Origin: an uncultured Anaeromassilibacillus sp.
GTDB taxonomy: Bacteria > Bacillota > Clostridia > Oscillospirales > Acutalibacteraceae
Assembly: GCA_930987725.1 (NCBI GenBank)
Contig: CAKNKY010000003.1
Span: forward strand, 1 to 64,000
DNA length: 64,000 nucleotides
Direction: 5' to 3'
Positions 21,612-45,234 of the stretch are shown here, piece after piece; positions within the stretch are counted from its first letter, which is position 1, and the number at the start of each line of letters is the position of its first letter. Made by a program: the position numbers and the translations under genes. Under the pieces are notes generated by a model. The model was not told the origin of the DNA and ran no database searches. It saw only the letters and a list, made by a program, of their open reading frames with translations.

Positions 21612-22655
21612 ATGGTTACGATCAAAGAAATCGCAAAAGAATGCAATGTATCCGTCACGACAGTATCCAACATCCTCAATGGAAAGCCGAAGGTGAGCGA
21701 AGAAACGCGCGAGCGTGTGATGAAGGTCATCAAGCGCCGCGGCTACCGGCCAAACTATGTGGCACAGAACCTGAGGCGGCAGAAAACGCACACCATCGGC
21801 ATCATTGCCGAAGATATCAACCAGTTTTCCACCCCCGGTATGATCGAAAGCATCATGGCGCGGTGTGAGCGCGAAGGGTACCACAGCATTGTGTGGAACC
21901 TGCGTCTTTATGCGCGCTGGAATGAAAAATGGTATGACAACGAATCGGCTTATCGATCCGCGCTCAACCCCGTGCTGCAGGAGCTGCGCTCCACCAAGGT
22001 GGACGGGATCATCTATGTGGCCGGCCACGCGCGCACCATCCGCTGCACCTCGCAGGACTATGAGGTCCCGGTGGTGATGGCCTATGCTTACCCGGATCTG
22101 CCCTCCATCCCTGCCGTTGTCATCGATGAGGAGCAGAGCGGCTATGATGCCATGCGCTACCTGATTGAAAAAGGACACAGGCGGATCGGCGTCATCGGCG
22201 GCCGAAGCGGAAACATCCACACTCAGAAGCGTCTCGTGGGTGTGCAGCGCGCACTTTATGAGGCCAATATTCCTTACAATCCCGCATGGGTGCGATACGG
22301 CGACTGGTTTATGAGCAGCGGCGAAGTCCAGGCTGACCCGCTTGTGATGTCCGGCGTGACGGCCATCTTCTGCATGTCGGACCGCATGGCGGACGGCATC
22401 TATCGTTATCTCGACAAACGAGGCATGCGCGCCGGTGTGGATCTCTCCGTGATGGGATTCGACAATCAGGATCTGGCAGAGCACCTTTGCCCGCCTCTCA
22501 CCACCATGAAGCTGCCCCTGGCGGAGATCGGCGACAACGCCGCCAGGCTGCTGATGGATTTCCTGAACGAGCGCCAGAGTTTTCCTCCCAAGAAGCACAT
22601 TGAGCTTTCCATCCCCTGTTCGCTGATCGAGCGATGCTCGGTGAAAGCGCTGTAA
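21612..22655 (+). CDS. LacI-family transcriptional regulator
   Basis: VTIKEIAKECNVSVTTVSNILNGKPKVSEETRERVMKVIKRRGYRPNYVAQNLR. Confidence 0.95.
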   Translation: MVTIKEIAKECNVSVTTVSNILNGKPKVSEETRERVMKVIKRRGYRPNYVAQNLRRQKTHTIGIIAEDINQFSTPGMIESIMARCEREGYHSIVWNLRLYARWNEKWYDNESAYRSALNPVLQELRSTKVDGIIYVAGHARTIRCTSQDYEVPVVMAYAYPDLPSIPAVVIDEEQSGYDAMRYLIEKGHRRIGVIGGRSGNIHTQKRLVGVQRALYEANIPYNPAWVRYGDWFMSSGEVQADPLVMSGVTAIFCMSDRMADGIYRYLDKRGMRAGVDLSVMGFDNQDLAEHLCPPLTTMKLPLAEIGDNAARLLMDFLNERQSFPPKKHIELSIPCSLIERCSVKAL

Positions 22656-22948: not shown

Positions 22949-22977
22949 TTGACAAAGTATGAATAGCGATCTATAAT
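22949..22977 (+). promoter_or_regulatory. Sigma-A promoter of ABC transporter operon
   Basis: TTGACA (22949-22954) N17 TATAAT (22972-22977). Confidence 0.9.
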
Positions 22978-23007: not shown

Positions 23008-23054
23008 CGGGCGGTGTGCCGCCTCAAACCAAACTATGGAAAGGGAGTTGTGTC

Positions 23055-23996
23055 ATGAAGCCAGCAGCAACGCAAAAAACCTTGCGGAACAAGAAGAAAT
23101 GGGATTCGGTCAAGCTGTTCCTCTATGTTCTTCCCTTCATTTTGCTTGTCCTTGTCTTTTCTTATTATCCGCTTTACGGCTGGGTTTACGCCTTTTTCGA
23201 TTACAAACCGCCGCGTCCGTTCTCGTGGGATGATTTTGTCGGCCTCAAATGGTTTGCCTCCCTCGTGGAATCGGACATCAAGATTCAGCAGATTGGCCAG
23301 GTGCTTCTGAACACCTTCGTCATGAGCGGCATCTCGCTGGGCACTTCCTGGCTGCCGATGCTGTTCGCTGTGTTTATGAACGAGCTGCGCTGCGTGCCGT
23401 TCCGCAAAGTGGTGCAGACGGTTACCACGCTGCCGAACTTCATCAGCTGGGTTCTGGTGTACTCCATCGCGTTCAGTATGTTCAACAGCACCGGCATGAT
23501 GAACACTTTGCTCTCCAACATGGGCGTTATTTCAGAGCCCATTCTCTTTCTCAATCAGTCTGGCCCCGGCGTCTGGCTTACGCAGTGGCTGTGGCTCACG
23601 TGGAAAAACCTCGGCTGGTCGTCGATTATGTACATCGCCGCGATTTCCGGCATTGATGCTGAGTTGTATGAGGCCGCAAGGGTCGACGGCGCAACCCGCA
23701 TGAAGATGATTTGGTACATCACCATTCCTTGCCTGCTGCCCACGTTCTTTGTCCTGTTGATGCTCAACATCGCAAATTTCCTGAACAACGGCATGGAACA
23801 GTATTACGTGTTCCAGAACTCCTTCAACAAGCAGTATATCCAGGTGCTCGACCTTTACGTGTTCAACACGGCCATGGGCGCCGGCAGCTATTCCGTCTCC
23901 GTTGCCATCAGTATGTTGAAGAGTGTCGTCAGCGTAGTGCTTCTGGTAGGCGCGAACACCGTCTCCAAGCTGATCCGCGGCGAGAGCTTTATTTGA
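23055..23996 (+). CDS. Sugar ABC transporter permease (LplB-like)
   Basis: 314 aa; KLFLYVLPFILLVLVFSYYPLYGWVYAF; EAARVDGATRMKMIWYITIP EAA motif. Confidence 0.93.
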   Translation: MKPAATQKTLRNKKKWDSVKLFLYVLPFILLVLVFSYYPLYGWVYAFFDYKPPRPFSWDDFVGLKWFASLVESDIKIQQIGQVLLNTFVMSGISLGTSWLPMLFAVFMNELRCVPFRKVVQTVTTLPNFISWVLVYSIAFSMFNSTGMMNTLLSNMGVISEPILFLNQSGPGVWLTQWLWLTWKNLGWSSIMYIAAISGIDAELYEAARVDGATRMKMIWYITIPCLLPTFFVLLMLNIANFLNNGMEQYYVFQNSFNKQYIQVLDLYVFNTAMGAGSYSVSVAISMLKSVVSVVLLVGANTVSKLIRGESFI

Positions 23997-24015: not shown

Positions 24016-24954
24016 ATGAAAACCCAAACGGCAGCTGTGAAAGCGCACAAGCACCATGAAGCCCGTTCCGGCGGCGACATTGTGCTGAGCATTGTCTGCT
24101 ACACCATCTTTACCATCTGTGCATTTCTGTGCATCTATCCGTTCTATTACATTTTCATCAACAGTATCAGTTCCAATGAACTGAGCTCGCGTGGCGTCAT
24201 CCTCTTCTATCCGGAAGGCATTCATCTGCAGAACTACCTCAAAGCGTTCCAGATTTCCGGCCTTGGCAATGCGGCGTTCATTTCGCTGGCTCGTACTGTT
24301 CTCGGCACCATCGGCACCGTGTCTGCCTCCGCGTTCCTGGGCTTCATGTTCACGCAGGATAAGATGTGGCACCGCAAGATCTGGTACCGCATGGTTGTTG
24401 CCACCATGTACTTCAACGCCGGCATCATCCCATGGTACCTGACCATGCGCAACCTCGGCCTCACGAACAACTTCTGGGGCTATGTTCTGCCGGCTATCGT
24501 TTCTCCCTTCTTCATCATCCTGACGAAGACCTTCGTGGAATCCGTTCCGAAGGAGCTGCAGGAAGCGGCCGAGATTGACGGCGCAGGCATCATCAAGATT
24601 TTCTTCCGCATCATGCTTCCTGTCATCAAGCCGATCCTGGCGACGGTGGCCATCTTCGCAGCCGTGAACCAGTGGAACGCCTTCCAGGATACGCTGCTCC
24701 TCGTGACGGACAACAAGCTTTATCCCCTGCAGTTCATCCTGTATCAGTATCTGAATCAGGCTTCCTCTCTGGCAATTCAGAACAGCGGCAGTTCCAGCAG
24801 TGGTTCGCTGGCCGGCGTCGGTGTCACCACGCAGACTCCTACCAGTATCCGCATGACCATCACCGTTATCGTTGTCATTCCTGTTATGCTTGTGTACCCC
24901 ATCTTCCAGCGCTATTTCGTCAAGGGCATCATGGTTGGTGCCGTGAAGGGCTGA
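24016..24954 (+). CDS. Carbohydrate ABC transporter permease
   Basis: 312 aa multi-TM; ELQEAAEIDGAGIIKIFFRIMLPVIKP EAA motif. Confidence 0.93.
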   Translation: MKTQTAAVKAHKHHEARSGGDIVLSIVCYTIFTICAFLCIYPFYYIFINSISSNELSSRGVILFYPEGIHLQNYLKAFQISGLGNAAFISLARTVLGTIGTVSASAFLGFMFTQDKMWHRKIWYRMVVATMYFNAGIIPWYLTMRNLGLTNNFWGYVLPAIVSPFFIILTKTFVESVPKELQEAAEIDGAGIIKIFFRIMLPVIKPILATVAIFAAVNQWNAFQDTLLLVTDNKLYPLQFILYQYLNQASSLAIQNSGSSSSGSLAGVGVTTQTPTSIRMTITVIVVIPVMLVYPIFQRYFVKGIMVGAVKG

Positions 24955-25037
24955 TTGTTCCCCGTTCCATCTGTTATATCTAGAAGCATTGGGCTTCTAT
25001 TTATAAAAATTGCGATCTATTGCAAAGGAGGATTTTC

Positions 25038-26825
25038 ATGAAAGCAAAACGCGTTCTGTCGCTGTCTCTGGCAGCGATCATGGTTGCCATGTCCATGCTG
25101 GGCTGCTCCCAGACGGATACGGCTTCCAGCACCGCCGAAGGCGGTGAGACGGCCTCTGCTGCCGGCGATGCCACCTCCGGCGGCGAAGAAGGAGGAAGTG
25201 GCACTCCCGAAGTTTCCCATGACGAAGAAGTTACGTTTGAAATCTACGACGTGGCTGCAAACTTCCAGGGCGAGCAGGTCGGCTGGTTTGGCAAGGTCCT
25301 GAAGGACGAGCTGAATGTCAAGCTGAACATCATTGCCCCGCAGGTTTCCGGCGATGCGAACTCCCTGTATCAGACCCGTACGGCGTCTGGTAACCTCGGC
25401 GATATCGTCATCCTTGACAATGCCGATATGCTTGACTGCGTGGATTCCGGCCTGATCATGAACATTGCCGACGTTGTCTACAGCTTCGGCAACCTGAATG
25501 AGTATCAGGAGCAGATCGATCAGTTCAATCAGGGAATGGGCGTCGGCGACGAGGGCGGCATTTACGCCATCCCCTGCAACATGAACAACAACGGCCCGAC
25601 CGCATTCGTCGGTGAAACCGTTGCGTCCGCTCCTCGTGTGCCGTGGGATTATTACGTCGGTGTCGGCGCCCCGGAAATGAAGACGACGGACGATCTCCTC
25701 AACATGCTGAAAGACATGATGGAGAAGTACCCGACCAACTCCAACGGCGACCCGGCCTATGCCATCTCCATGTGGCCTGACTGGGACGGTGAATCCATTG
25801 CGAACGCCAACCTGATTGCTCAGTGGTATGGCTGCATGCCTTACGGCGCTATTCTGCAGACCACCGAAAACACCATCATTCCTTTGACGGATGATGAGGG
25901 CGGTTACAAGAAGGCTCTGGACTTCCTGTTCAAGGCAAACCAGATGGGCCTTGTTGACCCTGACTCCGCTACGCAGGACTGGACGACCGTCTGCGAGACG
26001 AAGATGAAGCAGAAGAGAGTTTACCTGTTCTGGTACAACTGGCAGAACGGTTTCTGGAACACCCCGTCTCATGGCGAGAGCCGCGAGAATTACATGTATG
26101 TCCCGGTGGAAGAACTCCACTACTATCAGCAGTCTGACTCCTACTACGGCGATGGCCGCGTCTGGGGCGTCGGTTCCTCTGTGGACGACAACAAGAAGCT
26201 GCGCATTGTGGAATTCCTTGACTGGCTCGCCAGCCCCGAGGGTCTGCAGTATCAGCACAGCAGCCTTGAAGGCTTCATCTACACGGTCAATGATGACGGC
26301 ACCTACACCCTGACCCAGGAAGGCCAGGACCGCTTCACCGCCAGCATTGAGGTTCCGGAAGAGTACGGCGGCGGCTACTGGAGCGACGGCAACGACCAGA
26401 TCAACCAGTGGATTGTTGGCTCTGCTGCAAAGAACCCGCTCACCGGCGAGCCTTATGATCCCAGCCTGTGGGCTTCCACCATTGAAATGAACAAGACCGC
26501 CACGACGAACGAGTGGATCGAAATGTTCGGTGCAGAGAACGAAGTGAAATACATGGAGGCTCATGACGAAGTCACCATGCTTCCGAACATCAACATTCCT
26601 CTGCCGAGTGATGACACCGACATCGCCCTCATCCGCAGCCAGTGCGGTGACCTGATTTCCGATACTTCTTGGAAGATGGTATTTGCTGCTGACCAGGCTG
26701 CGTATGATCAGCTGTGGACCGACCTGAAGACTCAGCTCGAAGGCCTCGGCTGGGATCAGCTCGTTGAATACGATACCGAGAAATATCAGCCTGTGGTTGA
26801 CGCAAAGATTGCGGCAATGGAATAA
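25038..26825 (+). CDS. Sugar ABC transporter substrate-binding lipoprotein
   Basis: Signal peptide with lipobox MLGC (MKAKRVLSLSLAAIMVAMSMLGCSQ); extracellular SBP organisation. Confidence 0.93.
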   Translation: MKAKRVLSLSLAAIMVAMSMLGCSQTDTASSTAEGGETASAAGDATSGGEEGGSGTPEVSHDEEVTFEIYDVAANFQGEQVGWFGKVLKDELNVKLNIIAPQVSGDANSLYQTRTASGNLGDIVILDNADMLDCVDSGLIMNIADVVYSFGNLNEYQEQIDQFNQGMGVGDEGGIYAIPCNMNNNGPTAFVGETVASAPRVPWDYYVGVGAPEMKTTDDLLNMLKDMMEKYPTNSNGDPAYAISMWPDWDGESIANANLIAQWYGCMPYGAILQTTENTIIPLTDDEGGYKKALDFLFKANQMGLVDPDSATQDWTTVCETKMKQKRVYLFWYNWQNGFWNTPSHGESRENYMYVPVEELHYYQQSDSYYGDGRVWGVGSSVDDNKKLRIVEFLDWLASPEGLQYQHSSLEGFIYTVNDDGTYTLTQEGQDRFTASIEVPEEYGGGYWSDGNDQINQWIVGSAAKNPLTGEPYDPSLWASTIEMNKTATTNEWIEMFGAENEVKYMEAHDEVTMLPNINIPLPSDDTDIALIRSQCGDLISDTSWKMVFAADQAAYDQLWTDLKTQLEGLGWDQLVEYDTEKYQPVVDAKIAAME

Positions 26826-26870
26826 CGTTCCCATACGGCACGTGTCCAGGCGTCTTTGAACGGACAGATT

Positions 26871-26903
26871 GGGGACCGGCTACGCGCCGGTCCCCTTTCT
26901 CTT
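26871..26903 (+). terminator. Terminator downstream of the SBP gene
   Basis: GGGGACCGGC-tacgc-GCCGGTCCCC-TTTCTCTTT. Confidence 0.8.
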
Positions 26904-27289
26904 TGCAAAACTTTGTATCCTCCTTTCAACTTCTTTTTACTCCTTTCATTCTTCTTTTTTCAATTTATGCTGCATTAGGGCTGCCGTCCCTTTGAACGGC
27001 TGCCTTAAGGCAGCGCCGTGCGGCTCCTGTTGGTGGAGCCGTATGGCGGCGCCTTAAGGCTGATTTTTCCTCTTTCGTCCGTTTCCCGGCCGCAATTGAC
27101 GGCCGGCCCCCTGCCTCTCTTTGGACGAAAAAACGGGAAATCAACTGGAACGCTTCGCTCCCGGCCGGAGGGCCGGGGCGGTTGTGGGAAGGAGCTGCGC
27201 GCCGCCGCTCCGCGGGGAGAAGCCCCGCGGAGAGAGCGGGCGGCGCGGACTCAAACATCTGTTTTTGGGATTGGAGAGTGAAAACAATC

Positions 27290-30277
27290 ATGAGTCTTCA
27301 GAAAGTCTACAGCCCGTATTGCCGCATTGGCGCAGCCGTATCGGCGCAGGCGTTTGAACGCCCGGCCGCATTGCGTGCGCTGGCGGAGCAATACAATTCG
27401 CTGACGTGTGAAAACGACATGAAGCCGGAATGCCTGCTCGACGAGGCGGAAAACTGTGAAAACCCTGACGCACACCTGCTCAGCCCCGCCCTGCGCTTCG
27501 ACGGCATCCTCAACTATTTTGTGTTTGCAAAAGAACACCACATGGGGATGCGCGGCCATACGCTCGCCTGGCACAACCAGACGCCGCGCTGGTTCTTCAC
27601 GGAGCGCTACAGCCGCTCGCCTTCCGCCCCGCTCGCCGGCCGTGAAACCATGCTGGCCCGCCTGGATTCCTATATCCGCCAGGTGATCGGCTTTGCACAG
27701 AAGGAATACCCCGGCATCGTTTATGCCTGGGACGTGGTGAACGAGGCTGTGGACAACGGCAAGATGCGCCCCTCCCTGTGGACGGAAACGGTGGGCGAGG
27801 ATTTCGTGCTGCAGGCATTCCGCATTGCGAGAAAATACGCTTCGCCCGACATGAAGCTCTTTTACAACGATTATGACACGTTCCGCCCCGAAAAGTGCGA
27901 GGCGATTCAGAACCTTATCCTGAAGCCGCTGCTGGCGGAGGGCCTTGTGGACGGCATGGGCATGCAGAGCCACCTGACGATGGGCTCCCGCATGAGCGAT
28001 TATGACAGCGCCCTGCGCAGCTTCGGCGCCCTCGGGCTGGAAATCCACGTGACGGAGCTTGATCTGTTCAATCCCGACGTCTCCCCCGCAGGCGACGAGG
28101 CAGTGGCGCGGCGCTATCAGGAGCTGTTCACCGTGCTGCTGCGCGCCAAGAAGGAAGGCGCCGCCAATCTGACGAGCATCACCTTCTGGAACATGCAGGA
28201 CGAGGAGAGCTGGCTCACCGGCTTCCGCGGCTGCCCGTGCAAGCCGCTCCTCTTCTCCAACGGCTACCGCCCGAAGGCGGCTTACCTTGCCGTGGCCGCC
28301 GTGCCGGGCCGTGTGGAGGGCGACACGGAGGACCGCCTGCCCTACGGCGAGCGCTTTGCCTTCTGGGAGACGGAGCAGCACCCCACGCGCGATTACCACG
28401 TGAACCCCGCTGCCGCAAACGCAAGCGACGACAATGACGGCAGCGCCGACCACCCGCTCTGCACCATTCAGGCGGCGGCCGACCGCGTGCTGCCGGGCGA
28501 GCGCGTGCTGATCCACGGCGGTGTGTACCGCGAATGGGTGCGTCCGCGCCGCGGCGGCGAAGGACCGGAGAAAATGGTGTGCTATGAATCGTTCGGCGAC
28601 GGCGAAGTGATCATAAAAGCCTCCGAGCAGGCGACGGGCTTCGTGCCGAGCGAAAACTGGAACAAGGTGCCGCAGGGGATGCCGCAGTCGCTCGCGCCGG
28701 AAACGGTGCGCATCTGGGAGACAAAGCTTGATCCGGACAAATTCCGCGGCTATAACCCGTTCTGCGCCGTCAACATCCTGCACGACCGCCTGTTCATTGA
28801 ATACAACAAGACGGACATGACCACCTACCTGAACCGGCGCGGCATGGTATTCTGCGACGGCAAACCGCTCACGCAGGTGGCGCTTTATAACCAGATGACA
28901 AAGACGCCCGGCTCCTACTGGGTGGAAGCGAACGGCCAAACGGTGCATTTCCGCCTGGCAGACGACGGCGATCCGAAGGATCACCTGATCGAGCTCACCT
29001 GCCGCGAGCAGTGCTTTGCGCCGGAAACGCCCTTCCTCTCCTACATCAAGGTGAAGGGCATCACGTGCGCGCACGCCTCCATGGGCGGCCCGGTACCGCA
29101 GCGCGGCGCGCTCTCCGCGTTCCGCGGCCACCACTGGGTGATTGAAAACTGCAAAATTGACTGGGCCAACACGGTGGGGGTTGACATCGGCAATGAATGC
29201 TGGCATCATAGAGTGGACGAGGGCCAGATCATCGGCCACAGCGTGGTGCGCGGCTGCGAAATTCATGACGCGGGCGTGTGCGGCATTGCCGGCCTGTTTG
29301 CCACCAATCTGCTCATTGAGGATAACCTCATCACCGGCACCGGCTGGCAGAAGATGGAGCTTTCCTGGGAAGCGGGCGGCATCAAGGTGCACAACAGCGT
29401 GAACAGCCTGATTCGCCGCAACGTGTTCACGAAGACCTTCCGCGCCGACCACCTGTGGATGGACGTGGGCAACGAGAACAACCGCATCACGCGCAACCTG
29501 TTCCTCGATGGCATCGAGCAGCGCGAGGCAATCTTCATCGAGTGCTCCCGCGACGGCGTGAACCTGATCGATAATAATATTTTCTGGAACGTGGAGGGCC
29601 GCTTCAACCCGGCCGACGTTCCGGTGGAGCCGGGTTCCACCGGCTGGTACAAGATGGAGGAGCACGGCGTGGTGAACGGCTACGCCGTGTACGGAGAAGG
29701 CACCGACCGCCTGCATGTGGAGCACAACCTGATCGGCCGCTGCCGCAGCGCCGGCTACTTCGTGAAGCCTGTGGCTTTCCGCATTTCCCGCACGGGGCGC
29801 GGCGGCACGGGACGTGAGGCGCGCATCCGCAACAACCTCTTCTATGACTGCGGCGAGGCTGCGATCAAGTTCCCGACGCGCGACAACGACGCCCAGGGCA
29901 ATCTCTATGTGAAGATGCCCGGCGGCTATCTGCGCGTGCTCTATCCCGCCCCCGAGGTCTGCCTGAATCTGGACGCCTGGCAGGAGTTCTTCGGCTTTGA
30001 CCGCGAGGGCCAGGAAGCGCTCTTCGACATTGCCGTCGACACGGAAGCGCTCACGCTTTGCGTGAAGCCCGCGCAGGGCGAAGCGTGCGAGGCCCACGGC
30101 CCCGACCACGGCTATTGCGAGACGGACATTGCGCGCATTGCCGCCGTTCCCGCCTCCTTTGAGACGGCGGACGATTTTTACGGCACCGCCCCCTGCCGCC
30201 GCAGGCTGCCCGGCCCCTTCGCCGATCTGACGCCCGGCCGCGTCTATTCCATCGATCCGCGCAAGCCGCGCGCCTGA
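27290..30277 (+). CDS. GH10 endo-1,4-beta-xylanase fused to a C-terminal GH120-like parallel beta-helix domain
   Basis: N-terminal WDVVNEAVDNG acid/base and EIHVTELDLF nucleophile motifs; C-terminal DYHVNP..PLCTIQAAADRVLPGERVLIHGGVYREWVRP and LWMDVGNENNRITRNLF..IFIECS. Confidence 0.88.
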   Translation: MSLQKVYSPYCRIGAAVSAQAFERPAALRALAEQYNSLTCENDMKPECLLDEAENCENPDAHLLSPALRFDGILNYFVFAKEHHMGMRGHTLAWHNQTPRWFFTERYSRSPSAPLAGRETMLARLDSYIRQVIGFAQKEYPGIVYAWDVVNEAVDNGKMRPSLWTETVGEDFVLQAFRIARKYASPDMKLFYNDYDTFRPEKCEAIQNLILKPLLAEGLVDGMGMQSHLTMGSRMSDYDSALRSFGALGLEIHVTELDLFNPDVSPAGDEAVARRYQELFTVLLRAKKEGAANLTSITFWNMQDEESWLTGFRGCPCKPLLFSNGYRPKAAYLAVAAVPGRVEGDTEDRLPYGERFAFWETEQHPTRDYHVNPAAANASDDNDGSADHPLCTIQAAADRVLPGERVLIHGGVYREWVRPRRGGEGPEKMVCYESFGDGEVIIKASEQATGFVPSENWNKVPQGMPQSLAPETVRIWETKLDPDKFRGYNPFCAVNILHDRLFIEYNKTDMTTYLNRRGMVFCDGKPLTQVALYNQMTKTPGSYWVEANGQTVHFRLADDGDPKDHLIELTCREQCFAPETPFLSYIKVKGITCAHASMGGPVPQRGALSAFRGHHWVIENCKIDWANTVGVDIGNECWHHRVDEGQIIGHSVVRGCEIHDAGVCGIAGLFATNLLIEDNLITGTGWQKMELSWEAGGIKVHNSVNSLIRRNVFTKTFRADHLWMDVGNENNRITRNLFLDGIEQREAIFIECSRDGVNLIDNNIFWNVEGRFNPADVPVEPGSTGWYKMEEHGVVNGYAVYGEGTDRLHVEHNLIGRCRSAGYFVKPVAFRISRTGRGGTGREARIRNNLFYDCGEAAIKFPTRDNDAQGNLYVKMPGGYLRVLYPAPEVCLNLDAWQEFFGFDREGQEALFDIAVDTEALTLCVKPAQGEACEAHGPDHGYCETDIARIAAVPASFETADDFYGTAPCRRRLPGPFADLTPGRVYSIDPRKPRA

Positions 30278-30319: not shown

Positions 30320-32128
30320 ATGGAAGGAATTCTCAAAAGACAAACCGCCGCCCTTCTTGTTTATACGCGTGAACCGAAGCCGGGGACCATCCCCTGCGGG
30401 CTGGCCTATGCCGTTCATCTCGCCGTGTGCAGAGACGGGCGCACCTATGAACCCCTGAACCAGAATTACGGCGTCCTGTTTGCACCGGCTGACATCACGC
30501 CGGACAATACGCTCGACACGAAGAGCCTGAAAACCCCCTGTGTGTTCCCCCTCGCGGAAGGGGGCTGGGGCATCGCGGCCATCCGCACGCAGGAAATGGG
30601 GGAACCGGACTCCGCCTGCCGCGTGCTGGTGTGGAAAACGAAAGACTTTATGACATTCACGGCGCTTGCGCCCTTCGCACTGGGGACCGGACCGGTGCAG
30701 GCGCTGCGCGTGTGCCGCAGGGGAAGCGGCTATGTATTTGCCTGGCAGACTGCTTCCGGCAGCTATGAAACGCTGTTTTCTTCCCTGCCCGGCACCGCGA
30801 TCGAGACAAAATCCGCCGCCTGGAACGCGGAGGAAAAGGAGGAAGCCGTGGACGGCCTGCCGGAGGGCGCCGCACCCGGGAACAGCACCGCAATCGACGC
30901 TTCCCTGGCGGACAAGCTGGCGCTTTACTGGGGAGAGCTCTCCCACTGCGCCACACGCGTGCCTGCCTCCGTTTCTGCCGGCTGTGCGGAGGATGTGAAG
31001 GCCGTTGCCGCCACCGCCGTCTACACGGACGGTTCCACCGCCCCGCAGAAGGTGGACTGGGATCTTTCCGGTATAGATTTCACGAAGCCGGGCGAGTACA
31101 CCGTGCGCGGCACGCTGCACGGCAACCAGTATCCCTTCCCGCTCACACATGGAACGGGCGACCCCGTGATTGTTCCGTGGGAGGGCAAGTATTACCTGCT
31201 GTTCACAAACGACACGCTCAACGACGTCGGCTTTTACGTGTGCGAGGCGGACACCCCTGAGGAACTCTTCCGCCCCGGCATCGAGCAGCACCTGATCCTG
31301 CCCTATGATGAGGAAAAGGGCCATGTGCAGACGTTCTGGGCGCCGGAATTCCACATAGTGGGGGGCGAACCCTACATCTTCTTTGCCATCAGCGGCAAGG
31401 TCTGGGGGCCGCAGTGCCATGTGATGCACCTGCGCCGCGGCGGGAGCTTCATTGACCCGGCAAGCTGGGAGGAGCCGAAGCGCCTTGTGCGCGCGGACGG
31501 CGCCCCGCTGGCAGAAAAGGGCATCACGCTTGACATGACGGTGATCCAGGCGGGCGGCCGCGCCTATGTGGCCTGGTCGTACCGCAACGGCATCAACTCG
31601 CCGCTCGACACCGGTTCCATGATCTACATTGCCGCACTCAATGAAGAAAAGCCCTGGATGCTGGCAAGCGAGCCGCGCCTGCTCACCCGCCCCATCCTGA
31701 GCTGGGAGAACATGCAGGGCACGATCAACAACGAAGGGCCGCATCCGTTTGTCACGGAAGACTGCGTCTATCTGAGCTACAGCGGCGGCGCGGCGAACGG
31801 CTACACCTACGTGGTGGGTATGCTGACGGCCGACCCGCACGACGATCTCTCCGATCCGGCCAACTGGCACAAGAGCCTCACGCCGGTGCTGCACTACCAG
31901 TCGGTGGCCGGGGAATACGGCCCCGGGCACAACTCCTTCTTCCGCGACGATCTCGGCAACCTGTGGATTGCTTTCCACGGCGAGGTCAGTTATGAAAGCC
32001 ATGAGCGCTGCGCCGGCATTCGCCGCGTTCACTTTGACACAGACGGAAGACCGCGCTTCAACCTTTCCCCGGAACGCGACGTCAACCCCGCCCTGCGCGA
32101 GGTCTCGCTGCGCGTGACGGTGAAATGA
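30320..32128 (+). CDS. Glycoside hydrolase family 43 protein with N-terminal domain and Ig-like linker
   Basis: TGDPVIVPWEGKYYLLFTND, HVQTFWAPEFHIVGGEPYIFF; Ig-like ATAVYTDGSTAPQKVDWDLSGIDFTKPGEYTVRGTL. Confidence 0.82.
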   Translation: MEGILKRQTAALLVYTREPKPGTIPCGLAYAVHLAVCRDGRTYEPLNQNYGVLFAPADITPDNTLDTKSLKTPCVFPLAEGGWGIAAIRTQEMGEPDSACRVLVWKTKDFMTFTALAPFALGTGPVQALRVCRRGSGYVFAWQTASGSYETLFSSLPGTAIETKSAAWNAEEKEEAVDGLPEGAAPGNSTAIDASLADKLALYWGELSHCATRVPASVSAGCAEDVKAVAATAVYTDGSTAPQKVDWDLSGIDFTKPGEYTVRGTLHGNQYPFPLTHGTGDPVIVPWEGKYYLLFTNDTLNDVGFYVCEADTPEELFRPGIEQHLILPYDEEKGHVQTFWAPEFHIVGGEPYIFFAISGKVWGPQCHVMHLRRGGSFIDPASWEEPKRLVRADGAPLAEKGITLDMTVIQAGGRAYVAWSYRNGINSPLDTGSMIYIAALNEEKPWMLASEPRLLTRPILSWENMQGTINNEGPHPFVTEDCVYLSYSGGAANGYTYVVGMLTADPHDDLSDPANWHKSLTPVLHYQSVAGEYGPGHNSFFRDDLGNLWIAFHGEVSYESHERCAGIRRVHFDTDGRPRFNLSPERDVNPALREVSLRVTVK

Positions 32129-32283: not shown

Positions 32284-33789
32284 ATGCTGAGAACAACAAA
32301 GACTGAAAATGGATCCGTGCGCGGCATGCCGGCAGGCAACCCGCGCATCACGGTTTACCGCGGCATTCCGTTTGCCGCCCCGCCGGTGGGCAAGCTGCGC
32401 TGGTGCGCACCGCAGCCGGCGGCAAATTGGGCCGGCGTGCGCGACTGCCTGGAGTTTGCGCCCATTTCCATGCAGGGCACACCCGGCGAAAACCCGGACG
32501 AGCTCTATGCCAGGGAGTGGCATGTGGATCCGCAGATCCCTATGGACGAGGATTGCCTTTACCTGAACATCTGGACGCCCGCCGTCACGGGGGACGAGAA
32601 ACTGCCGGTGTTCGTGTGGTATTTTGGCGGCGGCTTCCAGTGCGGCTACACGGCGGAGATGGAATTTGACGGCGAGCGCCTGGCGCGCCGCGGCATGGTG
32701 GTTGTCACCGTGAACTACCGCGTGAACGTGTTCGGCTTCTTCGCCCATCCCGAGCTGACGGCGGAAGCGCCCGACGCACCCGCCAACTTCGGCCTGCTCG
32801 ACCAGCAGGCGGGCCTGTTCTGGGTGAAGCGCAACATTGCGGCCTTCGGCGGCGATCCGGATCACATCACCATCGGCGGCCAGTCCGCCGGCGGCGCCAG
32901 CGTGATGGCGCAGCTCAACAACCCGGCAAGCGCAGCCTGCTTCCAGAACGCGATTGTGCAGAGCGGCATTTTCTACCGCCCGTATGAGAAGGACGCGTTC
33001 TCTCCCCTCACGCTGGCGGAAACGGAACAGAAGGGCGTGGAGTTCTTCCGCTTCCTGGGCGTTTCCTCGCTGGAGGAGGCGCGCCGTGTGCCGGCCCGCG
33101 ATGTGCTCAAGGCATACCACGCATTCGGCCACAACTGGAACATTGCCATCGACGGCAAATTCCAGACGTGCAGCAGCTGGGATGCCGCGCTGCGCGGCGC
33201 CCTGCCGGACAAACCGCTGCTCATGGGCGAGACGAACAACGAATTCTTCACTTCCCCGAACGCGGAGAGCCTGGAAGAGCTGAAAGCCATGGCGGGCCGC
33301 TGCTTCGGCGACAAGGCAGCCGAGTTCCTGGCGCTCACCGGAGCGGACGAGGGGCTTGAGACGGCCGAAAAGAATGGCACGGTGGCCTCCATTGAGCTGG
33401 CCATGCGCATTCTGTGCCGCCGCCGCGCGGAAGCCGGGCAGAAGAATGCCACGTATGTCTATGAATTCGGGCCGGAGATCCCCGGTGACGGCCACGGCGC
33501 GTTCCATTCGAGCGATATCTGGTTCTTCTTTGAGACGCTGGGCAAGTGCTGGCGTCCCTTCACCGGCAAGCACTACGATCTGTCCCGCCAGATGTGCAAC
33601 TATTGGGCCAACTTCATCAAGACGGGCAACCCGAACGGCCGCGACGCCGACGGCACCCAGCAGGAGGAATGGCCGGCCTGGAAGGAAAGTGATCCGCACC
33701 GCATGACGTTCTATGACGTGCCGAAAACGGAAGCCTGCCCCGCCTCCCCTGTGATGGGCTTCCTCACCGACGCCGCCCCGAAGGCGTAA
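32284..33789 (+). CDS. Type B carboxylesterase
   Basis: VYRGIPFAAPPVGKLRWCAPQP, EDCLYLNIWTP, ITIGGQSAGGASV. Confidence 0.93.
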   Translation: MLRTTKTENGSVRGMPAGNPRITVYRGIPFAAPPVGKLRWCAPQPAANWAGVRDCLEFAPISMQGTPGENPDELYAREWHVDPQIPMDEDCLYLNIWTPAVTGDEKLPVFVWYFGGGFQCGYTAEMEFDGERLARRGMVVVTVNYRVNVFGFFAHPELTAEAPDAPANFGLLDQQAGLFWVKRNIAAFGGDPDHITIGGQSAGGASVMAQLNNPASAACFQNAIVQSGIFYRPYEKDAFSPLTLAETEQKGVEFFRFLGVSSLEEARRVPARDVLKAYHAFGHNWNIAIDGKFQTCSSWDAALRGALPDKPLLMGETNNEFFTSPNAESLEELKAMAGRCFGDKAAEFLALTGADEGLETAEKNGTVASIELAMRILCRRRAEAGQKNATYVYEFGPEIPGDGHGAFHSSDIWFFFETLGKCWRPFTGKHYDLSRQMCNYWANFIKTGNPNGRDADGTQQEEWPAWKESDPHRMTFYDVPKTEACPASPVMGFLTDAAPKA

Positions 33790-33815: not shown

Positions 33816-34622
33816 ATGGCTGACTTTCACGCACGGTATTTTTCCCAGGCGCTGACCCGCAGCGTATCGTTCTATGTCTATCTGCCGCTTGACGCCGATC
33901 GGAATGCAAATCCGGAGCAGTTTGCCCGCCCGCCCAAGACGGTGCTGCTCCTGCACGGCTACACGGGGGATGCCGCCTCGTGGAAGCTTGACACGCCAAT
34001 CTACAGCCTTGCGGCAAAATACAATCTGGCCCTGATCATGCCGGACGGGGAAAACAGCTTTTACCTCGACGGAGAGGCCACCGGCCGGCAGTACGGCACA
34101 TTTGTGGGGAAGGAGCTGCCCGATTTTGCCCACCGCGCGTTCGGTCTTTCGGGCAATCGGGAGGACAATTTCGTGGTGGGCATCTCCATGGGCGGCTTCG
34201 GCGCCGTCCACACCGGTCTTGCTTACCCGGACGCTTTTGCGAAGATCGCGGCCTTTTCCCCCGCTCTTATCGAGCGCCGGGTGGCTGCCATGCGGCCGGA
34301 GACGGCGCCCGACGGCGTTGCGAACTACGAGTACTACAGCCTCATGTTCGGCCAACCGGAAGCGCTCGCCGAAAGCCGCAACAGCCCCGAAACGCTTGTG
34401 AAGGAACTGATGCAGGCTGGCAAACCGCTGCCGGGCCTCTTCCTGACAATCGGCACGGAGGACTTCCTCTATGAGCCGAATCAGGAATTCCGCCGTTTCC
34501 TCACGGAACAGAACGTGCCGTTCCACTATGAGGAAGGGCCGGGGACACACAGCGGCGAATTCTGGAACGCCAGACTGGAACCGGCGATCCGCTGGATGCT
34601 GGATCTGCCGGAGCAGGGCTGA
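33816..34622 (+). CDS. Alpha/beta hydrolase, esterase D / CE1-like (putative acetylxylan or feruloyl esterase)
   Basis: TVLLLHGYTGDAASWK, FVVGISMGGFGAVHTGLAYPDAF. Confidence 0.85.
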   Translation: MADFHARYFSQALTRSVSFYVYLPLDADRNANPEQFARPPKTVLLLHGYTGDAASWKLDTPIYSLAAKYNLALIMPDGENSFYLDGEATGRQYGTFVGKELPDFAHRAFGLSGNREDNFVVGISMGGFGAVHTGLAYPDAFAKIAAFSPALIERRVAAMRPETAPDGVANYEYYSLMFGQPEALAESRNSPETLVKELMQAGKPLPGLFLTIGTEDFLYEPNQEFRRFLTEQNVPFHYEEGPGTHSGEFWNARLEPAIRWMLDLPEQG

Positions 34623-34660
34623 ACGGCGCACCGCCCCCACATACGGAAGGAGGACTTTTG

Positions 34661-35809
34661 ATGCAGGGTGCATTTTACACCGGAACATACCGCAACCTCT
34701 TTGCGGAATGCGGCTATTCGCAGGAAGAGATCGATCGCCGCGTGGAGGATGCGTTCCAAACCATCTTCTTCGGCCCGGAGGAGGATCGCTTCTATCACGA
34801 ATCGGGCAGCGACATGGGCTACCTGGAGGACACGGGCAACTATGACGCCCGCACGGAGGGCATGTCCTACGGCATGATGATGTGCGTACAGATGGACCGG
34901 AAGGATCTGTTTGACCGGATCTGGAAATGGGCCAAAACGTACATGTATCAGACGAGCGGGCCGGAGGCCGGCTATTTTGCCTGGAGCTGCGCGCCGGACG
35001 GCAAAAAGAACGCCGAGGGCGCCGCACCGGACGGCGAGGAATACTTCGCCATGGCCCTGTTCTTCGCCTCCCACCGCTGGGGCGACGGAGAGGGAATCTT
35101 CAACTACTCCGCCGAAGCGCGGCAGATCCTGCACGACTGCGTGCACAAGGGCGAACAGCCCGGCACGGGCAGCGCCATGTGGGACCCGGAAAACCATCTG
35201 ATCCGCTTTGTGGCGGGCTGTGATTTTTCGGACCCCTCCTATCACCTGCCGCATTTCTATGATCTGTTCAGCCTCTGGGCCAACGAGGAGGACCGCCCCT
35301 TCTGGAAGCGGGCGGCGCGGGCCAGCCGCGAATACCTGCATCTGGCCTGCCACGGCGAAACGGGCCTGAGCGCGGAATACGCCGCGTTTGACGGCACGCC
35401 GCAGAAGACGCCGCCGCACCTTTACGGCGGACGGCACGACTGGTTCTACAGCGACGCCTACCGCACGGCGGCAAACATCGGCCTGGACTGGGCCTGGTTT
35501 GCGGCGGACGAATGGCAGCGCGGCAACGCGGCGCGCATCCAGCGCTTCTTCAGCGAAGAGCAGGGCGGCCGCACGGACGGCGTGTTTCTCATTGACGGCA
35601 CGCCCGTCGAGGGCATGACGGCCCTGCATCCTGTCGGGCTGCTGGCCACGCTGGCGGAGACGTCCCTCGCCTCGGACGGCACGCACGTGCAGGAGTGGGT
35701 GCGCCGCTTCTGGGAAACGCCGCTGCGCAAGGGCGGCCGCCGTTATTATGACAACTGCCTCTATTTCTTCGCGCTTCTGGCGCTCAGCGGCAAATACCGA
35801 ATCTGGTAA
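34661..35809 (+). CDS. Glycoside hydrolase family 8, reducing-end xylose-releasing exo-oligoxylanase-like
   Basis: DTGNYDARTEGMSYGMMMCVQMDRKDLFDRIWKWAKTYM, GEEYFAMALFFASHRWGD. Confidence 0.9.
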   Translation: MQGAFYTGTYRNLFAECGYSQEEIDRRVEDAFQTIFFGPEEDRFYHESGSDMGYLEDTGNYDARTEGMSYGMMMCVQMDRKDLFDRIWKWAKTYMYQTSGPEAGYFAWSCAPDGKKNAEGAAPDGEEYFAMALFFASHRWGDGEGIFNYSAEARQILHDCVHKGEQPGTGSAMWDPENHLIRFVAGCDFSDPSYHLPHFYDLFSLWANEEDRPFWKRAARASREYLHLACHGETGLSAEYAAFDGTPQKTPPHLYGGRHDWFYSDAYRTAANIGLDWAWFAADEWQRGNAARIQRFFSEEQGGRTDGVFLIDGTPVEGMTALHPVGLLATLAETSLASDGTHVQEWVRRFWETPLRKGGRRYYDNCLYFFALLALSGKYRIW

Positions 35810-35827: not shown

Positions 35828-37333
35828 ATGATGGAAAAACAATACCGGCTTGACCCGGCGTGCAGCCAGTCGTTCCACAACCGGACCGACTTCTGCATCG
35901 GCACGGGCCGCATGGGCCTGGCGCTGCACCAGGAATACATGGATGAGCTTCGCCTGACGCAGAAGGAGATCGGCTTCCGGCACATTCGCGGCCACGGCCT
36001 GTTCTGCGATGACATGGCAATCTACCACACCTATCAGGACGCAAACGGCGAAACGCACGCGGAGTACAATTTCACATACCTCGACCGCGTGATGGACGGC
36101 TACCGCTCCGTGGGGCTCAGCCCCTTCCTGGAGCTCGGCTTCATGCCGGAAAAGATGGCCTCCGGCGACCAGACGGTGTTTTACTGGAAGGGCAACGTCA
36201 CGCCGCCCCGCTCCTATGAGGACTGGAAGGCCATGGTGCAGGCGCTGCTCCGCCACCTGCTGGATCGCTACGGCGCAGACGTGCTGACGTGGCCCATTGA
36301 GGTGTGGAACGAGCCGAACCTGCCCGGCTTCTGGAAGGGGGCCGACATGCCGGAGTATTTCCGCCTGTTTGAGGAAACGTTCCGCGCCATCAAGGAGGTG
36401 GACGGCCGCTTCACCGTGGGCGGCCCGGCCATCTGCGGCGTGGACGACGAGCGCTGGCTCACCGAATTCCTGAAATTCTGCCGTGAAAAGAAGATTCCCC
36501 TCGACTTTGTGACGCGCCATTTCTACACCTTCGACACGCCTGAGGAAAGCGGACATTACAGCTATGCTACGCTGCGCCGCCCGGAGGAAAGCCTGAAAGA
36601 GCTGGAGGTTTCGCGCGGCATCATCGACAGCTTCGAGGAATACCGCGGGATTCCGATGCACATCACGGAATTCAACACCTCCTACCGGCCGGACAGCCCC
36701 ATCCACGACACGACGCGCAATGCGGCTTATGTGGCGCGGCTGCTGGCGAGCCTGGGCGACTGGAACGATTCCTATTCCTACTGGACGTTCGGCGACGTGT
36801 TCGAAGAGAACGGCGTGCCCTTCACACCGTTCCACGGCGGCTTCGGCCTCGTGGCGGAGGGCTGCATCCCCAAGCCGACCTTCTGGACCTTCGCGTTCTT
36901 CAAGAAGCTGCAGGGCGGCTGCGCGCTGCGTTCGGAGGACGCCGTTGCGGTGCGCCGTGCCGACGGCAGCTATGCCGGCGTGGCCTGGAATCTGACGATG
37001 GACGAGGCGGACGGGCCGAAGACGCTCTCCTTCACCCTGCCGGAAGCCGGCGGCGACTGGTGCCTGCTGACCAAAACGGTGGACGAAGCCCACGCCAACC
37101 CGCTCAAGGTGTGGCATGACCTGGGCGAACCGTCCTGCCTGACGGAGGAGCAGAAGGGACTGCTCCGCAGCGCCGCTTCCCCCTTCGTGCAGACGCGCCG
37201 CCTTTCCGGCGGTGAGGCGCTCACCTTCTCGCTGGAGCTGGCGGAAAACGCGCTCGTCTATTTCGAGCTGACGCCCGTTTCCGGCGAAAGCGACCGCGGG
37301 TATTCCTACGAGCGCGCCACGGCGAAACAATAA
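35828..37333 (+). CDS. Glycoside hydrolase family 39 beta-xylosidase
   Basis: IGFRHIRGHGLFCDDMAIY, WPIEVWNEPNLPGFWKGA, MHITEFNTSY. Confidence 0.92.
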   Translation: MMEKQYRLDPACSQSFHNRTDFCIGTGRMGLALHQEYMDELRLTQKEIGFRHIRGHGLFCDDMAIYHTYQDANGETHAEYNFTYLDRVMDGYRSVGLSPFLELGFMPEKMASGDQTVFYWKGNVTPPRSYEDWKAMVQALLRHLLDRYGADVLTWPIEVWNEPNLPGFWKGADMPEYFRLFEETFRAIKEVDGRFTVGGPAICGVDDERWLTEFLKFCREKKIPLDFVTRHFYTFDTPEESGHYSYATLRRPEESLKELEVSRGIIDSFEEYRGIPMHITEFNTSYRPDSPIHDTTRNAAYVARLLASLGDWNDSYSYWTFGDVFEENGVPFTPFHGGFGLVAEGCIPKPTFWTFAFFKKLQGGCALRSEDAVAVRRADGSYAGVAWNLTMDEADGPKTLSFTLPEAGGDWCLLTKTVDEAHANPLKVWHDLGEPSCLTEEQKGLLRSAASPFVQTRRLSGGEALTFSLELAENALVYFELTPVSGESDRGYSYERATAKQ

Positions 37334-37396
37334 TTCCATGACCATGTGAGCGGGCAGCGGCCTGCTCCCCACTTTTTCAACAAGAGGTGCAACGCA

Positions 37397-39514
37397 ATGA
37401 TGAAACGTGAAACCGCACGAAAGCTGGCCAGGGAGCTGGTGGCGCAGATGACGGTGGAGGAGAAGGCTTCGCAGCTTCTGTTCCAGGCTCCCGCCATCCC
37501 GCGGCTGGGCATCCCGGCCTACAACTGGTGGAATGAGGGCCTGCACGGCGTCGCCCGCGCCGGCACGGCCACCATGTTCCCCCAGGCCATCGGCATGGCC
37601 GCCATGTTCGACGCGCCCATGATGCAGGAGATTGGCTCCGTGATTGCAGACGAGGCGCGCTCCAAGTACAACATGCAGTCCGCCCTGGGCGACCGCGATA
37701 TCTACAAGGGCCTGACGCTCTGGTCCCCGAATGTGAACATCTTCCGCGACCCGCGCTGGGGCCGCGGCCACGAGACGTACGGCGAGGATCCGTTCCTCTC
37801 CTCCCGTCTCGGCGTCTCGTTCATCAAGGGGCTGCAGGGGGACGGCGAATACCTGAAAACGGCTGCCTGCGCCAAGCACTTTGCCGTGCACTCCGGCCCG
37901 GAGGGCAAGCGCCACGAATTTGACGCGCACGCCACGCCGAAGGACATGTGGGAGACGTATCTGCCCGCATTCGAGGCCTGCGTGAAGGAAGGCAACGTGG
38001 AGGCCGTCATGGGCGCGTACAACCGCACGAACGGCGAGCCCTGCTGCGGCAGCAAAACGCTGCTCAAGGACATCCTGCGCGATACCTGGGGCTTTGAGGG
38101 CCATGTGGTCTCCGACTGCTGGGCCATCTGCGACTTCCACACAACCCACAAAGTGACCTCGACGCCGGAGGAATCCGCGGCGCTGGCTCTGCAGAACGGC
38201 TGCGACGTCAACTGCGGCTCCATGTACGGCCACCTGCTCGAGGCGCTGCAGCAGGGGCTGATCACGGAGGATCAGCTCACCACGGCGGCGGAACGGCTGT
38301 TCACCACGCGCTACCTGCTCGGCATGTTCGACGAGAAGTGCGAATACAACAAGATCCCCTATGAGGACACCGATTCCCCGGAGCACAACGCGCTGGCGCT
38401 CGAAGCGGCGCGCCGCTCCCTTGTGCTGCTCAAGAACGACGGCCTGCTGCCGCTCAACCGCGAAGCGCTGCACAAGGTGGCCGTAATCGGCCCGAACGCA
38501 GACAGCCGCGCCTCGCTGAACGGCAACTACCACGGCACCCCCTCCCGCAGCGTGACGGTGCTGGAGGGCCTGCGCCAGGAGCTGGGCGACGGCGTGCGCC
38601 TCTTCTACAGCGAAGGCAGCCACCTGTTCAAGGACCGCGTGGAGGGCCTGGCCCTGCCGGGCGACCGCCTGGCGGAGGCGAAGGCCGTCGCCTCCCTGAG
38701 CGACGTGACGGTGCTCTGCCTCGGCCTCGACGAGACCATGGAAGGCGAGCAGGGCGACACCTCGAACCTGAGCGCTTCCGGCGACAAGCTCGGCCTCGAC
38801 CTGCCGCCGGCTCAGCAGGAGCTGCTGGAGGCGGTTGTCTCCACCGGCAAGCCGGTCATCCTCGTGATGCTGGCCGGCAGCGCGCTCAATCTGAGCTACG
38901 CGCAGGAACACTGCGCCGCCATCGTGCAGGCCTGGTATCCCGGCGCCTGGGGCGGCCAGGCTGTGGCGGAGCTGCTGCTGGGCAAGTACAGCCCCTCCGG
39001 CCGCCTGCCCGTGACCTTCTATGCGCCGTCGAATCCGCTGCCGGACTTCGAAGACTACAGCATGAAGGACCGCACGTACCGCTATCTGCATGAGGAGCCG
39101 CTCTATCCCTTCGGCTACGGCCTTTCCTACACGGCGTTCTCCTATGAGAAGCTGGATGCGCCCGAGTCGATTGCCGCAGGCAGCGACATGCAGGTGACGG
39201 TAAAGGTGCGCAACACCGGTTCCCGCGCCGGCGCCGAAGTGGTGCAGCTCTACCTCTCCGGCCGTCCGGGCGAAAACCAGCCCATCCGCAGCCTGTGCGG
39301 CTTTGCCCGCGTGGAGCTGGACCCCGGCGAGGAGAAGGATGTCACGCTGCAGATTCCGTCTTCCGCCATGCTTACCGTGGCGGAAGACGGCTCCCGCGCC
39401 GTGCTGCCTGGGCATTACTGCCTGACGGCCGGCGGTTCCCAGCCGGACAGCCGCAGCCTGGAGCTCACCGGCAGGGAAACGCTCTGCTGTTTCTTTGACG
39501 TGAAGGAGGCGTAA
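37397..39514 (+). CDS. Glycoside hydrolase family 3 (beta-xylosidase/beta-glucosidase)
   Basis: NWWNEGLHGVARAG, GRGHETYGEDPFLSSRLG, GHVVSDCWAICDF; C-terminal FnIII-like domain. Confidence 0.94.
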   Translation: MMKRETARKLARELVAQMTVEEKASQLLFQAPAIPRLGIPAYNWWNEGLHGVARAGTATMFPQAIGMAAMFDAPMMQEIGSVIADEARSKYNMQSALGDRDIYKGLTLWSPNVNIFRDPRWGRGHETYGEDPFLSSRLGVSFIKGLQGDGEYLKTAACAKHFAVHSGPEGKRHEFDAHATPKDMWETYLPAFEACVKEGNVEAVMGAYNRTNGEPCCGSKTLLKDILRDTWGFEGHVVSDCWAICDFHTTHKVTSTPEESAALALQNGCDVNCGSMYGHLLEALQQGLITEDQLTTAAERLFTTRYLLGMFDEKCEYNKIPYEDTDSPEHNALALEAARRSLVLLKNDGLLPLNREALHKVAVIGPNADSRASLNGNYHGTPSRSVTVLEGLRQELGDGVRLFYSEGSHLFKDRVEGLALPGDRLAEAKAVASLSDVTVLCLGLDETMEGEQGDTSNLSASGDKLGLDLPPAQQELLEAVVSTGKPVILVMLAGSALNLSYAQEHCAAIVQAWYPGAWGGQAVAELLLGKYSPSGRLPVTFYAPSNPLPDFEDYSMKDRTYRYLHEEPLYPFGYGLSYTAFSYEKLDAPESIAAGSDMQVTVKVRNTGSRAGAEVVQLYLSGRPGENQPIRSLCGFARVELDPGEEKDVTLQIPSSAMLTVAEDGSRAVLPGHYCLTAGGSQPDSRSLELTGRETLCCFFDVKEA

Positions 39515-39577: not shown

Positions 39578-41053
39578 ATGGCAAATCTTTTCGTCAACAC
39601 AGCCCGAAAGGGAGCTGTGATCAACCGCAACATCTACGGCCACTTTTCGGAGCACCTGGGCCGCTGCATTTACAACGGCTTCTTCGTGGGAGAAAACAGC
39701 TCCATTCCGAACGTGAACGGGATGCGCACCGACATTGTGGAGGCGCTGCGGAATATCCGCATTCCCGTGCTGCGCTGGCCGGGCGGCTGCTTTGCAGATG
39801 AATACCACTGGAAAGACGGCATCGGCCCGAAGGAGACGCGCAAACGCATGGTCAACACGAACTGGGGCGGCGTCGTGGAGGACAACTCCTTCGGCACGCA
39901 CGAGTTCATGGAGCTGTGCCGCCAGCTGGGCTGCGAGCCGTATATCACCGGCAACGTGGGCAGCGGCACCGTGCAGGAGATGAGCGAGTGGGTCGAGTAC
40001 ATGACGTTCGACGGCGTCTCCCCCATGGCGGAGCTGCGCCGCAAGAACGGCCGCGAGGAGCCCTGGAAGCTCACCTACTTCGGCGTGGGCAATGAAAACT
40101 GGGGCTGCGGCGGCAACATGCGCCCGGAATTTTATGCGGATCAGTTCCGCCGCTATGCGACGTATGTCCGCAACTATGGCGACAACAAGATTTACAAGAT
40201 TGCGTGCGGCCCGAATGTGGAGGACTATGAGTGGACCGACAAATTCATGGCCCTGGCCGGGCAGTACTGCAACGCGATCAGCCTGCACTATTACACGCGC
40301 ATTGACGCGCACGACTGGTCGAAGAAAGGCTCTGCCACCGGTTTCCCGGAGAAAGAGTACTGGTCCACCATCGTGAGCGCGCTCTGGATGGAGGAGCTCA
40401 TCTCGAACCATCTGGAAATCATGCGCCGCCACGATCCGGAACGCCATGTGGATCTGGTGGTGGATGAGTGGGGTACGTGGTTTGACGTCGAGCCCGGCAC
40501 GAACCCCGGCTTCCTCTATCAGCAGAACTCCATGCGCGACGCCGTCACCGCGGCCATCACGCTCAACATCTTCAACCGCCACGCGGACAGCGTGACCATG
40601 GCGAACATTGCGCAGACGATCAACGTGCTGCAGGCCATGGTGCTCACCGACGGCGAAAAGATGCTGCTCACCCCGACGTACCACGTGTTCGATCTCTACA
40701 AGGATCATCAGGACGCCAACCTGCTGGAAAGCTACACGGAAACGCGTGAGGTCGGCGACGAGGAAAGCCGCGTGCCGAACCTGCACGAGTCCGCTTCGGT
40801 TGACAGCGAAGGCCGCATCCACATCACCGTAGCCAACACCTCGCTCTCCGGCGGGGAACCGCTCGCCGTGCATGTGCCCGGCCGCGAGGGTGCGAAGGCG
40901 TCCGCCCGCACGCTTGCCGGCGTGATGGATGCGCACAACACCTTTGAGCAGCCCGACGCCGTGAAGCCCGTTCCGCTCGATGTGCAGTGGAAGGACGGCT
41001 CCCTGTGCCTCACCCTGCCGGCCTGCAGCGTGACGGCCATCACCATCGAATAA
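39578..41053 (+). CDS. Glycoside hydrolase family 51 alpha-L-arabinofuranosidase
   Basis: [49 protein letters not shown]. Confidence 0.96.
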
Positions 41054-41083: not shown

Positions 41084-41116
41084 GGAGGAGGCTCCCTTTT
41101 GGGGGCCTCCTTTTTT
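41084..41116 (+). terminator. Terminator for the plus-strand GH operon
   Basis: GGAGGCTCCC-tttt-GGGGGCCTCC-TTTTTT. Confidence 0.85.
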
Positions 41117-41141
41117 GAGCCGTTTTCCGAAAAAAATGTGG

Positions 41142-41173
41142 AAAAAAGGCCGGATCCTGCTCCGGATCCGGCC
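41142..41173 (-). terminator. Terminator for the GH29 gene
   Basis: AAAAAAGGCCGGATCC..GGATCCGGCC read on the minus strand. Confidence 0.85.
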
Positions 41174-41189
41174 TTTCATGGAGGGAAAA

Positions 41190-42659: not shown

Positions 42660-42725
42660 TTTCCGTTACACTCCTTTTGTTTCGGGGAAGTCATGGGAAC
42701 GGGCTGCCCGCTCCGTTTTCACAAA

Positions 42726-42739
42726 GCAAAACGTTTCAC
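42726..42739. promoter_or_regulatory. LacI/CcpA-like operator site upstream of GH29
   Basis: GCAAAACGTTTCAC imperfect palindrome. Confidence 0.5.
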
Positions 42740-42863
42740 TTTTTCTCTGAAAAAAAGCGGCACGCCTTCCACCGCGCACATCCTCCTTACTTTGTGAAAA
42801 TGAACCTGCCCCCTCCCTTGTCCACACCAATGCGGGCAGCCGGCACTTTTTCACACAGCACAG

Positions 42864-45111: not shown

Positions 45112-45234
45112 CGGCCCGGCGCTCTTTCGCCTCACCCTTTCTCGTTTGGAAACGCAGGGGGACGGTTTGCCTTTTTCCGGCAAGCCGTCCCTTTTCAGAA
45201 TGGCCGCCTGGCGGTCGGGACAGGAGGAACCGGA

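Follow-up and report, generated by a model that had tools for sequence, protein, structure and literature searches.

The genome of an uncultured Anaeromassilibacillus sp. was found to encode a protein of 995 amino acids in which a GH10 domain is followed by a GH120-type right-handed β-helix domain. With a probability of about 0.78, this protein is a cytoplasmic endo- (GH10) plus exo-acting (GH120-type) enzyme for imported xylo-oligosaccharides, encoded within an importer-fed operon, both activities being predicted ones. Each part is known, and the architecture and the clade of the C-terminal domain are new variations on known types. Related gut Clostridia share this domain arrangement, usually with a sugar importer encoded next to it. 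The following features were assigned in the analyzed stretch of 64,000 nucleotides, hereafter the window.

27290..30277, + strand: GH10-GH120-type fusion gene (intact open reading frame; same architecture in 13 further loci)
27293..28300, + strand: GH10 catalytic domain, residues 2-337 (PF00331 at 1.6e-80, motif positions)
28382..30274, + strand: GH120-type right-handed β-helix domain, residues 365-995, with D725, E751, and E694 (3VST matches, conserved residues, AlphaFold/Foldseek)

The fusion gene and its product

The open reading frame starts with an ATG at 27290 and runs to 30277 on the forward strand without an internal stop codon. Inspection of the sequence revealed GGAGAG 11 nt upstream of this ATG. 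An alternative, longer frame would begin with an in-frame TTG at 27182; the ATG is preferred because of the upstream GGAGAG and because it coincides with the beginning of the GH10 domain. A TTG-extended N-terminus carrying a signal peptide was unsupported. No signal peptide was seen in the fusion protein, the GH10 domain of which already begins at residue 2, and its N-terminal hydropathy peak was 0.95 as compared to 2.56 for the neighboring solute-binding lipoprotein. By its N-terminus the fusion protein appears to be a cytoplasmic enzyme. An earlier note had described a single 995-amino-acid protein combining GH10 with a GH120-like β-helix and lacking a visible signal peptide; the intact frame, the matches to both domains, and the low hydropathy all agree with this description.

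A full-length structural model reached a pTM of 0.85. The interdomain stretch 338-365 was modeled with a pLDDT of about 90, hinting that the two domains may be held in a fixed arrangement.

The GH10 half

The Pfam model PF00331 matched with E = 1.6e-80 over model positions 1-310 of 311, nearly its whole length. The motif WDVVNEA starts at residue 147 and places the acid/base at E152, and VTELD starts at 254 and places the nucleophile at E256; both glutamates were aligned with those of PDB entry 8bbi. This bears out the claim of a complete GH10 with both catalytic motifs. The nearest solved relatives of this half are GH10 xylanases, and comparison of the full-length model with the xylanases IXT6, TsXylA, and XynB gave target-normalised TM scores of 0.86-0.89. 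A match to NCBIfam NF041944 (xylanase/feruloyl esterase) was rejected, as it was confined to the GH10 part and scored 134 bits against a cut-off of 1200. We infer that the GH10 half is a retaining endo-β-1,4-xylanase.

The C-terminal domain

Behind the GH10 domain, Pfam yielded only a generic β-helix match. A phmmer search of residues 365-995 against the whole PDB returned the β-xylosidase XylC (3VST) at E = 7.8e-23 as the sole match at E ≤ 1. A profile built from the clade of the window domain only, with canonical GH120 sequences left out, retrieved XylC at 9.4e-41, and the next match followed at 0.0098. In the reverse direction, a profile of 11 canonical GH120 sequences served as a stand-in for the dbCAN/CAZy GH120 model; run against 44 sequences, it recovered the domain of the fusion protein with E = 2.8e-44. 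Sequence identity to XylC is about 25%, except for the last ~220 residues of the protein, which show no sequence match to XylC.

The AlphaFold model of the C-terminal domain had a pLDDT of 81.7 and a pTM of 0.87. Foldseek ranked 3VST first with E = 3.3e-25, a TM score of 0.69 in both directions, and an rmsd of 5.0 over 753 columns; the runner-up structure followed at 2.9e-11, 14 orders weaker. BT_1002, GH136 lacto-N-biosidases, and polysaccharide lyases were considered as best match, but they scored 2.9e-11 or weaker in Foldseek and these β-helix families were without a comparable sequence match.

The motifs VYREW at residue 412, HLWMD at 721 (D725), and IFIE at 748 (E751) were located in the domain. 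Counting residues in the printed alignment, Asp382, Glu405, and Glu353 of XylC correspond to D725, E751, and E694, respectively. Across 55 aligned sequences, D725 and E694 do not vary, and E751 is present in all 54 sequences reaching that site. According to a study on gut xylosidases, Asp382 is the GH120 nucleophile and Glu405 the acid/base, and alanine at the equivalent positions abolished activity in three GH120 enzymes (PMC8954004). The GH120-like character proposed in the earlier note was thus recovered by phmmer, profile, and predicted fold, and the Asp and Glu to which the note pointed correspond to the residues shown to be catalytic by this mutagenesis. The C-terminal half is predicted to have β-xylosidase activity.

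A divergent sister clade of GH120

In a phylogenetic tree, the clade of the window domain was placed as sister to the canonical sequences including XylC, not nested among them, with support of 100 and on a very long branch. We therefore use the label "GH120-type, divergent sister clade" rather than canonical GH120; the long branch also means that a shift in specificity is possible. Identity between the window domain and XylC-like proteins amounts to about 25%. Scores against XylC were about 355-465 bits for canonical stand-alone proteins as compared to about 75-125 bits for most full-length clade members. Position 693 is Trp in the window clade and Ala or His in canonical sequences; the characterized xylosidase BaXylB likewise carries Trp at the position of His352 (PMC6887791).

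The genus and family to which the window belongs also contain canonical GH120 genes of the stand-alone type. Fragments of one or two such genes were observed in the genome of the organism itself (C35:7-687 and C41:18770-19030; L002, L003), and the one on C35 extends to where its contig stops. A canonical GH120 xylosidase is probably encoded separately in this organism as well.

Distribution and history of the fusion

A scan of the genome collection identified 35 loci with relatives of the C-terminal domain, a few of them truncated by contig ends. In 13 of these, a GH10 precedes the domain on the same chain, as in the window; the majority of the others encode stand-alone proteins of ~650 amino acids, usually without a GH10 gene nearby. 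Carriers of the fusion belong to Caccousia, Anaeromassilibacillus, Eisenbergiella, and other Lachnospiraceae, and include assemblies of Anaeromassilibacillus sp. An200, Eisenbergiella porci, and E. tayi as well as the complete Lachnospiraceae CE91-St56 genome. Three of four congeners checked carry the fusion. Among the matches listed for 391 evenly sampled genomes of the class, it was present only in the window's own genome; among 399 genomes of the phylum, the open frames of the strong clade members are not long enough to encode a fusion.

The GH10 domains found in fusions group into a single clade with a support of 100. Furthermore, GH10 and GH120 identities among the fused proteins covary (Spearman 0.83, 78 pairs). 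The fusion is old, maintained, and restricted in range. A single origin may still be accommodated on the GH120 tree, where branching is poorly resolved and simple counting arrives at three changes.

At one locus (L038:6095-9848), GH10 and GH120-type genes are separate with slightly overlapping open frames; the GH10 encoded there shows no particular affinity to the clade of GH10 domains from fusions.

Operon and genome content

Downstream of genes for a regulator and an ABC importer, a tightly spaced series of enzyme genes begins with the fusion gene and continues with those encoding GH43, two esterases, GH8, GH39, GH3, and GH51 enzymes.

21612..22655, + strand: LacI-family regulator (PF00356; same position in related loci)
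23016..23996, + strand: ABC permease 1 (PF00528); the listed start is a GTG, but translation may start at a later ATG in the same frame
24016..24954, + strand: ABC permease 2 (PF00528)
25020..26825, + strand: solute-binding lipoprotein with MLGC lipobox (PF01547, N-terminus, weak similarity to ABC substrate-binding proteins in the PDB); the real start is probably an internal ATG
26871..26895, + strand: terminator-like hairpin separating the genes of the importer from the enzyme operon
30320..32128, + strand: GH43 enzyme without signal peptide (PF04616)
32284..33789, + strand: carboxylesterase-family protein (PF00135 at 1.3e-89)
33816..34622, + strand: esterase-D-type esterase (PF00756)
34658..35809, + strand: GH8, by similarity a reducing-end xylose-releasing exo-oligoxylanase (Rex; PDB 5yxt at 2.7e-160)
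35828..37333, + strand: GH39 enzyme (PF01229 at 2.8e-115)
37346..39514, + strand: GH3 enzyme (PF00933 and PF01915)
39578..41053, + strand: GH51-type α-L-arabinofuranosidase (PF06964 at 2.8e-50)

No signal-peptide-like N-terminus was seen among the products of the enzyme run from the fusion protein through GH51. The order LacI, permease, permease, solute-binding protein, and GH120-type domain is kept in many loci, fused and unfused, and a carboxylesterase gene often comes next. Family searches of the genome, which is 98% complete, with GH10, GH11, and GH30 as the xylanase families covered, revealed GH10 only in the fusion gene, and GH11, GH30, and GH67 were not found; polymeric xylan is therefore probably cut by other species.

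Several additional elements were observed in the window. A perfect 12/12 sigma-70-like promoter (TTGACA-17-TATAAT) lies at 22949-22977 ahead of the importer genes. The gap of 464 bases before the fusion gene (26826-27289) is rich in inverted repeats including GCTGCCTTAAGGCAGC; a search for a LacI operator common to the promoter regions of importer and fusion gene found no shared 11-mer. An open frame of 560 amino acids at 41115-42797, right after a terminator-like sequence, has no Pfam match and is probably not a gene. Past the operon, GH36-type (Melibiase) and GH2-type genes at 43045-47649 suggest a second glycan-use cluster.

Proposed function and alternative explanations

We propose that the LacI-linked ABC importer would supply xylo-oligosaccharides to the cytoplasm, where the GH10 domain (retaining, E152/E256) would cleave inside these possibly decorated molecules. 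The GH120-type β-helix (retaining, with D725 as nucleophile and E751 as acid/base) would take xylose off the non-reducing ends of the fragments, and the GH8 Rex would trim reducing ends. GH51, GH43, and the two esterases would strip side groups, and GH39 and GH3 would finish short oligomers. The substrate of the fusion enzyme is likely imported xylo-oligosaccharide rather than polymeric xylan. Action on imported oligosaccharides had already been suggested in the earlier note, and it agrees with the lack of a signal peptide, with the ABC importer encoded next to the enzyme, and with a genome in which no further GH10 and no GH11 or GH30 were found. As to the exact substrates, the gain from two sites on one chain, and any hand-over between these sites, we rely on inference.

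A point against a xylosidase role of the C-terminal domain is that the operon already has candidate xylosidases in GH43, GH39, and GH3. The domain might retain the GH120 catalytic pair and have another specificity, for decorated xylo-oligosaccharides, β-1,3-linked xylose, or another pentoside, and would then represent a new subfamily or family. The deep, fully supported split from canonical GH120, the coexistence of canonical stand-alone genes in the same genus, these further β-xylosidase families, and the clade-specific Trp693 speak for such a shift; conservation of the D/E pair together with E694, the Trp shared with the xylosidase BaXylB (PMC6887791), and the xylan-specific genomic setting speak against it, and we consider it rather unlikely. 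Similarly doubtful is the proposal that the domain founds a distinct β-helix glycosidase family or subfamily beside GH120, tuned to the products of intracellular GH10, in which a rigid pair passes fragments from the endo- to the exo-site.

In principle, a fusion partner can be catalytically relaxed, so that one half could be catalytically weak, serving mainly as a binding or structural module of a single-activity protein. Both catalytic sets are intact, the GH120-type set is also conserved, and among the fused proteins the divergence of one half tracks that of the other, which makes this explanation very improbable. Finally, an origin of the fusion by misassembly, by a frameshift error, or by a local accident can practically be dismissed because 14 loci, the window and 13 others, carry the same architecture, among them named-strain assemblies and one complete genome. 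Accordingly, we retain the combined endo- and exo-enzyme for imported xylo-oligosaccharides as the preferred explanation.

Relation to known enzymes and significance

XylC from Thermoanaerobacterium saccharolyticum (3VST/3VSU/3VSV) shares with the window domain the right-handed β-helix, the residues equivalent to D725/E751 and E694, and the VYREWV motif. However, it is a stand-alone enzyme, whereas the window domain, only ~25% identical and divergent in its C-terminal third, lies behind a GH10. The intracellular GH10 xylanases IXT6 (1N82), TsXylA (3W24), XynB (3EMC), and Xyn10A2 of Paenibacillus JDR-2 likewise lack a signal peptide and act with ABC importers on imported oligosaccharides, as proposed here, but they are single-domain proteins, whereas the window protein adds a β-helix xylosidase-type domain. 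In Paenibacillus JDR-2, the separate intracellular Xyn10A2 is paired with importers and xylosidases (PMC4765114). For T. saccharolyticum, the intracellular GH10 TsXylA and the xylosidase XylC are both among the solved structures; the window joins both types in one chain.

Characterized GH120 members are few: two were listed in a 2019 review (PMC6887791), and a 2022 study describes three more xylosidases (PMC8954004). Compared by description only, Bp-XylX-1, Bp-XylX-2, and Lr-XylC share the proposed catalytic pair and the use of xylo-oligosaccharides by gut Firmicutes; they differ in being XylC-type two-domain proteins, with no GH10 mentioned in the accessible text (PMC8954004). CbXyn10C/Cel48B and other bifunctional GH10 enzymes also have two catalytic domains on one chain, with a partner of a different family as far as the accessible text describes them (PMC6892212). 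In the literature outside subscription journals and database-only listings, we found no description of a GH10-GH120 fusion or of GH120 fused to an endo-xylanase, two papers matching only by the words 'GH10 and GH120'; as the search was blind to these two sources, the architecture may well be in CAZy, unstudied.

The conserved, predicted cytoplasmic endo/exo fusion, in a genome where the xylanase families searched gave no other member, suggests that these gut bacteria scavenge xylo-oligosaccharides released by other species. Furthermore, it allows one to ask whether an endo- and an exo-enzyme work better within a cell when linked, and it is a natural template for xylo-oligosaccharide conversion by one protein.
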